Assembly: GCA_947591605.1 (NCBI GenBank) | Contig: CANQDF010000001.1 | Location: 124,001-188,000 of the forward strand | DNA from: an uncultured Clostridia bacterium | Lineage (GTDB): Bacteria > Bacillota > Clostridia > Lachnospirales > CAG-274 | Direction of reading: 5' to 3' | Length of the DNA stretch: 64,000 nucleotides | Shown here: positions 7,651 through 60,426 of the stretch, piece after piece | How the letters are laid out: the number at the start of each line of letters is the position of its first letter | How positions within the stretch are numbered: position 1 is the first letter of the stretch | Notes under the pieces: model-generated | The model's database searches: none | What the model was told of the DNA's origin: nothing | The model's input: only the letters and a program-made list of their open reading frames with translations | Position numbers and translations under genes: made by a program

Positions 7651-8052
7651 GTGAATAAGGTAAAAATCAAAATTGTTACTCCCGAAAAAGAAATGTACAA
7701 CGGCGATGCCGATATGGTCATTTTCCGCTCCAAATGCGGCGATGTAGGCATAATGCACGGGCATCTGCCCATGGTCACCGTGCTTGATTACGGCGTTTTA
7801 AGGATAATGGAAAACGGCGAGGCGGTCAAAAAGGCTGCCGTATTCGGAGGTTTTGCCGAGATAGACGGCGAGTGCGTCAATATACTTACCGACGCTGCCG
7901 AATGGTCCGACGAAATAGACCTGAGCAGGGCAGAGGCGGCAAGGGACAGGGCGGAAAAAAGGCTTATGCTCTCAAGCCCGGATATTGACGAGCTGAGAAG
8001 CGAGATGGCGCTTAAAAGAGCGCTTATCAGGATAAATACAGCTGAAAAGTAA
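7651..8052 (+). CDS. atpC: F-type ATP synthase subunit epsilon
   Basis: A 133-residue F1 epsilon subunit: an N-terminal beta sandwich (KIVTPEKEMYNGDADMV, then GDVGIMHGHLPMVT) and a C-terminal helical hairpin rich in Arg, Ala and Glu. It couples gamma to the c-ring and can inhibit ATP hydrolysis. The start is GTG at 7651, preceded by GAGAGTGA, and the upstream region has no better start. It is the last gene of the operon, followed directly by a strong terminator. Confidence 0.95.
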   Translation: MNKVKIKIVTPEKEMYNGDADMVIFRSKCGDVGIMHGHLPMVTVLDYGVLRIMENGEAVKKAAVFGGFAEIDGECVNILTDAAEWSDEIDLSRAEAARDRAEKRLMLSSPDIDELRSEMALKRALIRINTAEK

Positions 8053-8055
8053 AAT

Positions 8056-8092
8056 AAAGCTGCCTCGGGGCGATCTCCCGAGGCAGCTTTTT
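8056..8092 (+). terminator. Rho-independent terminator of the atp operon
   Basis: A 14-bp perfect stem (8056-8069 with 8077-8090) with a 7-base loop, its right arm ending in a short T run, four bases after the atpC stop. Confidence 0.9.
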
Positions 8093-8405
8093 AGCGTGTC
8101 GAAAAAGTCGACACGCTTGCAGGAAATGCAAGCATTTACGAGGAACAAACGAGGGTACCTCGTTTGCTTGCGGGGTACCCCCGCAAGTTCCTCTGCCTGC
8201 ATTTTTTTCACAGAGTATAAAGAGATTCGCGCCTCGCTATCGCTCGACACTCCCTCTTTTCCTCGGACGAAAAGCACTTTTGGCTGTGCCAAAAGCCGCC
8301 CTACGGGCGTCCGCATTACTTTTTTGCGGTGCATAAGCAAAGCTCGTCCCCGTGGTCATGCTAATTTTCCCAAAGGGAAAATTACGCTGACTGCGGATTT
8401 TAGCC
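8093..8405. repeat. Palindrome-mosaic intergenic element, copy A
   Basis: Between atpC and the convergent rluA-type gene (437 bases) I see no credible gene but a run of perfect short-loop inverted repeats. They are 8093-8102/8108-8117; AAATGC/GCATTT at 8124-8137; AAACGAGG/CCTCGTTT at 8147-8165; CTTGCGGGG/CCCCGCAAG at 8167-8187; CTTTTC/GAAAAG at 8256-8274; CTTTTGGC/GCCAAAAG at 8277-8295; CGCCC/GGGCG at 8297-8309; CCGCA/TGCGG at 8311-8329; and TAATTTTCCC/GGGAAAATTA at 8362-8384. Outer stems TGCAGG/CCTGCA (8118-8123/8196-8201) and GAGGAAC/GTTCCTC (8140-8146/8187-8193) enclose the second to fourth hairpins as a multi-branch structure. A shared module CTGCGGATTTTAGCC (8391-8405) recurs at 36.6 and 60.1 kb. 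The remaining 8406-8529 is AT-rich with only a small A/T palindrome. Confidence 0.75.
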
Positions 8406-8529
8406 TGCGGCGCTTAAATTACCTTGAAGTGTTTTCGCAAGTTTAAACTCTTAAAAAATCATTTTTTGAATCTGATTTTAGGCTTTTTGTTTGTACAGCA
8501 AAAAATTCGGCTAACACCGTTATATGCAG

Positions 8530-36540: not shown

Positions 36541-36775
36541 AAAGGCATTCAGGCTGTAAAATAACCTTATTTTATAAGGCAGCTTAGCATCTTAAGGCGC
36601 CGTCAGCTTAAAGCCTTTTGGCTTTAGCGATACCGTAAGGCAGGCTATAATCCGCAGGCGGAATTCACTTCCGCCGAGGAAAACAGCGAGTTTCAAGGGA
36701 CTTTTAGTCCCGCCGGAATGAGCTGTTTATACTTCTGCTTACTTTCGGAAAAGTTCCAAAGGGACTTTTTCGATA
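36541..36775. repeat. Palindrome-mosaic intergenic element, copy B
   Basis: Perfect short-loop stems follow one another: TAAAATAA/TTATTTTA (36557-36574), overlapping the alternative CCTTAT/ATAAGG (36565-36579); TAAAGCC/GGCTTTA (36609-36626); GGCGGAA/TTCCGCC (36657-36675); GGGACT/AGTCCC (36697-36711); and AAAAGTTCC/GGGACTTTT (36749-36770). GGCTATAATCCGCAG (36643-36657) and ATGAGCTGTTTATACTTCTG (from 36718) recur in copy C; the first also in copy A. No gene is seen. Confidence 0.75.
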
Positions 36776-36783
36776 TTAAATAA

Positions 36784-36856
36784 GCGCGATTAGCTCAGTT
36801 GGTAGAGCAGGTGACTCTTAATCACAAGGTCCGGGGTTCGAGCCCCCGATCGCGCA
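36784..36856 (+). tRNA. tRNA-Lys (CTT), copy 1
   Basis: A 73-nt cloverleaf: acceptor GCGCGAT/ATCGCGC, D stem GCTC/GAGC, anticodon loop CTCTTAA (anticodon CTT, reading AAG), T arm with GGTTCGAGCCC, discriminator A. CCA is not encoded. The anticodon stem has a G-A at the top pair. The next copy is identical. Confidence 0.93.
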
Positions 36857-36904
36857 TCGCCAAGCTTTTTGGCTTTATATAAGGGGCGTATACCCCATCA
36901 ATAA

Positions 36905-36977
36905 GCGCGATTAGCTCAGTTGGTAGAGCAGGTGACTCTTAATCACAAGGTCCGGGGTTCGAGCCCCCGATCGCGCA
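36905..36977 (+). tRNA. tRNA-Lys (CTT), copy 2
   Basis: Base-for-base identical to copy 1 over all 73 nt and 48 bases downstream of it. The spacer holds GCCAAGCTTTTTGGC and GGGG/CCCC hairpins that may guide processing. Followed by a terminator. Confidence 0.93.
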
Positions 36978-60020: not shown

Positions 60021-60084
60021 AGACTTAAAAAAACAGACATTTCTGCCTCATTTATACCAAAATGCTTTATTAAATCAAGTAACT

Positions 60085-60200
60085 CAAAGCTCCGCAGACT
60101 AAGATCCGCAGGAAAAAGTGCTTTTCTCTTCAGTCCCGATGAAATGAGCTGTTTATACTTCTGCTTGTACTCTAAAAAGTCCCGAAGGAACTTTTTATAC
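60085..60200. repeat. Palindrome-mosaic intergenic element, copy C
   Basis: Shares GACTAAGATCCGCAG (60097-60111; compare copies A and B) and, with copy B, ATGAGCTGTTTATACTTCTG (from 60144) followed by the hairpin AAAAAGTCCC/GGAACTTTTT (60174-60196). It lies between feoA and feoB; on the minus strand the last hairpin has a T run and probably ends the feoA transcript. No gene here. Confidence 0.7.
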
Positions 60201-60204
60201 AGCG

Positions 60205-60426
60205 CTATTCAACGTCTATCATCTGCGCATCCGCTTTCCTTATGCTGAGCTCATAGCCCCTTACGGTAAGCTCGATAGGGTCGCCCAGCGGTGCCACCTT
60301 GCGCACAAACACCTTGGTATTTTTGGTAATGCCCATATCCATTATCCTGCGTTTTACGGCGCCCTCACCGTTTAATTTTACCACGTTTACGGTTTGACCG
60401 GGCGCAATATCCTTTAATGTTTTCAT
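60205..60426 (-). CDS. feoA: FeoA family protein, second copy
   Basis: A 73-residue SH3-like protein with GQTVNVVKLNGEG, KRRIMDMGI and the conserved GDPIELTVRGYELSIRK end. FeoA binds or supports FeoB on the cytoplasmic side. The ATG at 60426 follows AAGGAGGAATATA; the longer frame would begin before it. It lies 69 bases after the first FeoA. Confidence 0.92.
   Translation of the reverse strand: MKTLKDIAPGQTVNVVKLNGEGAVKRRIMDMGITKNTKVFVRKVAPLGDPIELTVRGYELSIRKADAQMIDVE

Follow-up and report, generated by a model that had tools for sequence, protein, structure and literature searches.

The locus

The window analysed here, a 64,000-nucleotide stretch of the genome of an uncultured Clostridia bacterium, carries a dense cluster of hairpins directly 3′ of atpC, the gene for the ATP synthase epsilon chain. 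A reading from the sequence alone (the sequence-only reading) had pointed to at least nine perfect hairpins between 8093 and 8405, and had weighed three options: a mobile element of palindromic type, an RNA of complex fold and a set of protein-binding sites. Counting of non-overlapping perfect hairpins (arm at least 5, loop 2-10) does give nine in this interval, against 2.36 +/- 1.25 with a maximum of 6 in 200 dinucleotide shuffles, and five have arms of at least 8 where 0.03 are expected. Folding z-scores of the region relative to shuffles are -7.1 for the + strand and -9.8 for the - strand. Both of the outer stems that had been proposed are present, TGCAGG (8118-8123) pairing with CCTGCA (8196-8201) and GAGGAAC (8140-8146) with GTTCCTC (8187-8193), and the cluster does directly follow the atpC terminator, whose hairpin ends at 8090. 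The span given for it was too short, however: the hairpins are there, but 8093-8405 is only part of a feature that runs from about 8091 to 8489. That feature is a copy of a repeated, non-coding element, and its anatomy is as follows.

7651-8052, +: atpC, ATP synthase epsilon chain (Pfam PF02823 and PF00401), which lies upstream and supplies the terminator used as insertion target
8056-8090, no strand: atpC intrinsic terminator hairpin with a 14-bp stem (inverted repeat I3, 100% complementary, terminator-like), the target site of the element
8091-8489, +: the whole element copy, a long form with three inserts, delimited by alignment of genome copies; at the right it falls short of the consensus by its last ~9 bp
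8091-8107, +: left terminal inverted repeat TTAGCGTGTCGAAAAAG (consensus TCAGCGTGTCGAAAAAG), which abuts a duplicated hairpin in 62/72 copies and resembles IS1182 ends
8093-8117, +: H1 hairpin with a 10-bp stem that includes the left inverted repeat
8118-8204, +: H2 hairpin (TGCAGGAAATGC / GCATTT..CCTGCA), split here by insert A, uninterrupted in short copies; two of its pairs have double-sided changes
8138-8195, +: insert A, a 58-bp double-hairpin module present in some copies only (stems 8146-8154/8158-8166 and 8167-8175/8179-8187)
8218-8259, +: P3 helix AAAGAG / CTCTTT, ending immediately 5′ of CCTC; homologues have 28 different helix sequences at this place
8261-8349, +: CCTC motif, which is invariant, and the covarying H4 hairpin (GGACG..GCTCGTCC), split by insert B
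8270-8335, +: insert B, a 66-bp palindromic module, lacking from short copies and a separate repeat in relatives
8350-8390, +: insert C, a 41-bp hairpin module with its stem around 8362-8384
8392-8413, +: P5 motif TGCGGATTTTAGCCTGCGGCGC, which hardly varies from genus to genus
8414-8489, +: A+T-rich right arm (consensus end TTTTTTGACAGTCTGA); the window copy stops at TTTTTG (8489)

Two raw open reading frames cross the feature, 8096-8446 (+) and 7972-8340 (-). Neither is credible as a gene, because copies of the element differ by inserts (of 58, 66 and 41 bp) and consist of hairpins, and so a coding function was rejected, in line with the initial view that no open reading frame explains the cluster.

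Copies, ends and duplicated hairpins

Whether other copies exist had been left as a question on which the mobile reading might fail. Merged searches with the hairpin stretch and the right arm place the element at 60 or more locations in the 2.37-Mb genome, a lower bound for which the best 40 candidates were scored, and a search of the window's own assembly with the right arm finds at least about 40 places. The element is non-coding and about 235-440 bp in size, with short (~240 bp) and longer forms; none of the short copies has any of the three palindromic inserts that the window copy carries at 8138-8195, 8270-8335 and 8350-8390. Related elements are found also in other Clostridia. Plasmid sequences searched for homologues of the element gave none, and viral contigs gave one P5-motif match (L318, IMGVR_UViG_3300035512_000922, positions 782-803). 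Several contigs start or stop within element copies, as is expected of a repeat. The ends of two contigs (L021 on C38 and L084 on C29) apparently hold the two halves of one copy, recognized by their common hairpin, and duplicated hairpins could serve to join contigs.

Complete copies start with TCAGCGTGTCGAAAAAG and end with TTTTTTGACAGTCTGA, and their terminal inverted repeats are imperfect and about 17 bp long (TCAGCGTGTCGAAAAAG / TCAGACTGTCAAAAAAAC). What lies immediately outside these ends is the most distinctive feature. In the window's genome direct repeats scoring at least 12 surround 20 of the 28 two-ended copies, as against 0.5% of 756 mismatched flank pairs, and in six related species they surround 42 of 47 (null 0.14%, n=2162). 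Pooling, which excludes L193 together with L127 + and L187 + (wrong-strand readings of the palindromic left end), leaves 72 two-ended copies, 62 of them with flanking direct repeats of 13-39 bp (median 24). Fifty-two of these 62 repeats are one hairpin, usually an intrinsic terminator, with its foot at most 3 nt from both repeat ends, whereas random windows of the same length satisfy this in 8.6% of cases. The duplicated hairpins vary in sequence from site to site, and agreement is confined to the two flanks of the same copy. When the P5 motif was used to scan public contigs of Clostridia, some of them from the same genomes, duplications were found in 35 of 49.

An element that is short, non-coding and of high copy number, with terminal inverted repeats, target-site duplications and, as described below, a related autonomous element with matching ends, is a miniature inverted-repeat transposable element (MITE). 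The first of the options in the sequence-only reading, a mobile palindromic element, is thus borne out by the copies, their ends, the target duplications and, at the atpC terminator, presence in some relatives and absence from others. Three copies in the window's own genome (L004, L028 and L111) are flanked by two unrelated hairpins, and having unrelated hairpins on the two sides suggests recombination between copies and hence genome rearrangement. From there one could picture a static repeat that spread among terminators by recombination or gene conversion with no transposition at all. That is hardly credible: every insertion duplicates its own distinct hairpin at exact element ends, and recombination makes no target duplications. 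Unrelated hairpins on the two sides of an element or IS1182 copy are likewise seen in relatives (L322, L323).

Ends shared with IS1182 insertion sequences

Insertion sequences of the IS1182 family that occur in the same genomes have ends matching the terminal inverted repeats of the element. In the window's genome there are pieces of IS1182 transposase sequences whose left ends, CAGACTGTCAAAAAAG, match the right end of the element at 16 of 16 positions; most of these pieces sit at the foot of a hairpin, and in one place an element copy and an IS1182 end lie on either side of one hairpin. A relative (G006) has an intact IS1182 of 475 amino acids (NF033551, 416.9 bits against a cut-off of 270; PF13751, PF05598 and PF01609, that is DUF772 and DDE domains) adjacent to an element copy, and a single 25-bp hairpin is present there three times: one occurrence precedes the insertion sequence, one separates it from the element copy and one follows the latter. 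Two IS1182 copies from a different family within the order (L320, L321) have whole hairpins duplicated on both sides.

In some IS1182 copies (L136, L051 and L053) a terminator-like hairpin lies just inside the terminal inverted repeat. Such hairpins possibly insulate the transposase gene from transcription that originates outside.

How the insertions may arise

We put at roughly 85% the probability that the element is a MITE that shares its ends with IS1182-family elements and is mobilized in trans by their transposases, which target hairpins at a cruciform junction so that the hairpin becomes duplicated. The transposase would recognize a DNA hairpin, mostly that of an intrinsic terminator and probably extruded as a cruciform, and on each strand the hairpin's 5′ foot would be where the element ends are joined. 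Repair of the gaps would then place a full copy of the hairpin on either side, and the length of the duplication would equal that of the hairpin (13-39 bp). On linear DNA the strand-transfer sites would lie 13-39 bp apart, which is unexpected for a fixed transpososome and argues for a cruciform or hairpin junction as substrate, where both 5′ feet would be at one junction whatever the stem length. Put otherwise, a duplication length that follows hairpin length through a threefold range does not sit easily with a transposase of fixed geometry acting on linear DNA.

Several observations weigh against this reading. Ten of the 72 copies have no long repeat, and besides the three copies with unrelated flanking hairpins there are two (L038, L040) with 7-bp repeats and no hairpin. 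The window copy itself has a single hairpin, on its left, with no second hairpin copy and no target duplication, and no intact right element end was found anywhere in the window; having lost the final ~9 bp and also the second hairpin, it is a right-truncated and probably immobile copy. Hairpin duplication is absent from some intact IS1182 elements whose ends have other sequences. Mobility is deduced from comparison of sequences. IS1272, the member of the family that has been studied, does away with the hairpin partly or completely, as does TnSha1, and neither gives a target duplication, while here the whole hairpin is duplicated. In the assembly of the window's own genome no intact IS1182 was found, the pieces there being decayed or at contig ends, and nothing is common to the element and the insertion sequence beyond the ends, so it is no simple internal deletion product; because only the ends are shared, it is treated as IS1182-associated and not as IS1182-derived.

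The last two points would suit a MITE moved by another transposase, or by an RNA-based route of similar target preference, with the IS1182 end match a coincidence, and an IS30-family element, IS1630, also duplicates inverted repeats according to the title of a cited study (PMC3317919). We consider this unlikely in view of the 16/16 end match, the one hairpin that recurs threefold around an intact IS1182 and the element copy beside it, and the whole hairpins duplicated by IS1182 copies in another family.

Comparison with known systems

Group IIC introns insert beside intrinsic terminators too; they are not known to cause target duplication, and they encode or depend on a reverse transcriptase. 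RUP, BOX and SPRITE are different elements from the present one, with different ends.

There is a closer likeness to IS1272 and TnSha1 of staphylococci, which belong to the same transposase family as the element's presumed partner and also have hairpins as targets. These hairpins can be of any sequence, and many are confirmed transcription terminators (PMC4923244, PMC5678879). For TnSha1, terminator hairpins as targets are accompanied by partial hairpin deletion (PMC4923244). Hairpin deletion is also reported for IS1272, for which duplication of the whole hairpin is drawn as a hypothetical pathway (pathway b, Fig. 13 of PMC5678879). Replacement of the hairpin in the manner of IS1272 is not what the present copies display, as long flanking repeats, mostly whole hairpins, accompany 62 of 72 of them, and these copies offer a natural many-copy data set for the pathway that has only been proposed for IS1272.

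IS1630 of Mycoplasma fermentans, as far as the accessible part of the source goes, is a known case of duplicated inverted repeats, with four copies in strain M64 that have 16-26 bp duplications; its transposase belongs to another family, and that part makes no mention of a MITE partner or a conserved internal fold (PMC3317919). In being short, non-coding, multicopy, hairpin-forming and intergenic, RUP, BOX and SPRITE resemble the present element, but SPRITE itself resembles a terminator whereas the present element inserts into terminators, and the portion of the review available (PMC10969869) says nothing of a terminator hairpin being duplicated whole. Hairpin targeting, from IS1272, and hairpin duplication, from IS1630, are thus each known, and it is their combination that appears to be new. 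A literature search for an IS1182 MITE, with coverage that lacked most subscription journals, found no publication.

The terminator after insertion

Where the duplicated hairpin is a terminator, its two copies are not equivalent. Among 60 copies scored, at least five T in the eight nucleotides after the stem were found for the right hairpin copy in 38 and for the left copy in one (Wilcoxon p = 2e-9). For terminators that read in the direction of the element, the T-tract stays on the outer hairpin copy, the left copy being without it and the right copy with it, and so transcripts from upstream should run through the element; judged by its sequence, the host transcript should end at the far hairpin. 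On the proposed mechanism the T-tract would remain on the right hairpin copy and insertion would relocate the terminator instead of destroying it. With one hairpin and its T-tract kept, a mobile element could occupy many terminators, that of the ATP synthase operon included, with little harm. There is also a bias in orientation: a T-tract on the right side only was found in 23 copies and on the left side only in 6 (p = 0.002), so that the sense orientation relative to the terminator is the commoner.

The atpC site in relatives

Presence and absence between relatives was examined at the atpC terminator itself, and it differs by genome. The element is there in five of the 20 genomes read, namely the window's genome, G021, G014, G004 and, in decayed form, G006; most of the others have a single terminator after atpC and no element. 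In both G014 and G004 the genome's own atpC terminator is perfectly duplicated; the two terminators differ from each other, and the element lies in opposite orientations. That these duplications differ, with opposite orientations and with most other genomes free of the element, points to repeated and independent use of this site.

The conserved interior fold

The interior of the element is built of hairpin modules and keeps a conserved fold. When 34 copies from seven species are aligned, H1, H2, CCTC, H4 and a near-invariant 22-nt motif emerge. Across the named helices pairing is kept in 97.8% of cells; covariation is 0.165 as against 0.075 in shuffled and at most 0.062 in slid controls; for H4, with 19 variants, the values are 0.402, 0.174 and at most 0.176, and in both cases none of 500 shuffles reaches the observed value. 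As shuffles do not remove relatedness, more weight falls on the slid controls and on the number of independent types. The multiple alignment misaligns P3 and has no variation in P5, for which reason G-U against A-C counts drawn from it do not discriminate between RNA and DNA. Single-sequence folds of 50 cores find a P3 helix of at least 4 bp next to CCTC in 41, and 28 distinct sequences are represented (AAAGAG/CTCTTT, GTAGTGA/TCACTAT and GTAACAA/TTGTTAT are examples), of which a few are probably non-homologous. Compensatory changes in the stems of relatives, the other matter on which the sequence-only reading had hung its proposals, are therefore present, and its option of an RNA with a complex fold gains from them, though the fold may act at the level of RNA or at that of DNA. 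That selection acts on the interior structure, as RNA or as DNA, is supported by this pattern of sequence change.

An Rfam search of the element gave no match at the gathering threshold and only chance-level matches at E<=1, on which grounds membership in a known RNA family was rejected; the interior fold, conserved yet absent from Rfam, makes a candidate RNA. One may go further and ask whether the hairpin array is mainly a structured regulatory RNA, a 3′ untranslated region (3′ UTR) or attenuator of atpC, with its repetition secondary. The folding z-scores, the compensatory changes and the sense-orientation bias would all suit such an RNA. It is nevertheless very improbable as a full account, which the hairpin duplications refute: with copies at 60 or more other sites, inverted repeats at its ends, duplicated targets and no copy at atpC in most relatives, the element is mobile and not bound to atpC, and no Rfam family includes it. 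A function added to mobility is compatible with all of this. The bolder form of that thought is a tentative one, and we regard it as doubtful: the element may carry a structured RNA that has a function and is maintained from genus to genus (P3, CCTC, H4 and the near-invariant TGCGGATTWWAGYCTGCGRCGC), and insertion may be a hand-over of the terminator that fuses this RNA to host 3′ UTRs, the element then being a mobile 3′-UTR module that would stabilize or regulate host transcripts.

Other repeats in the window and in relatives

A second subfamily of the structured element has decayed members in the window. One, at 36,575-36,777 (-), has P3 AAACAG/CTGTTT and H4 GGCGGAAGTGAATTCCGCC and lies directly 5′ of a tRNA gene; at 36,784-36,977 (+) there is a tandem pair of tRNA genes, apparently identical in sequence. 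A further member, at 60,045-60,205 (-), has the P5 motif at 60089-60110 with two mismatches. Palindromic modules like insert B occur many times in relatives (L059 in G001, L061 in G011, L058 and L076 in G036), apparently in other contexts also, and may be a separate small repeat family.
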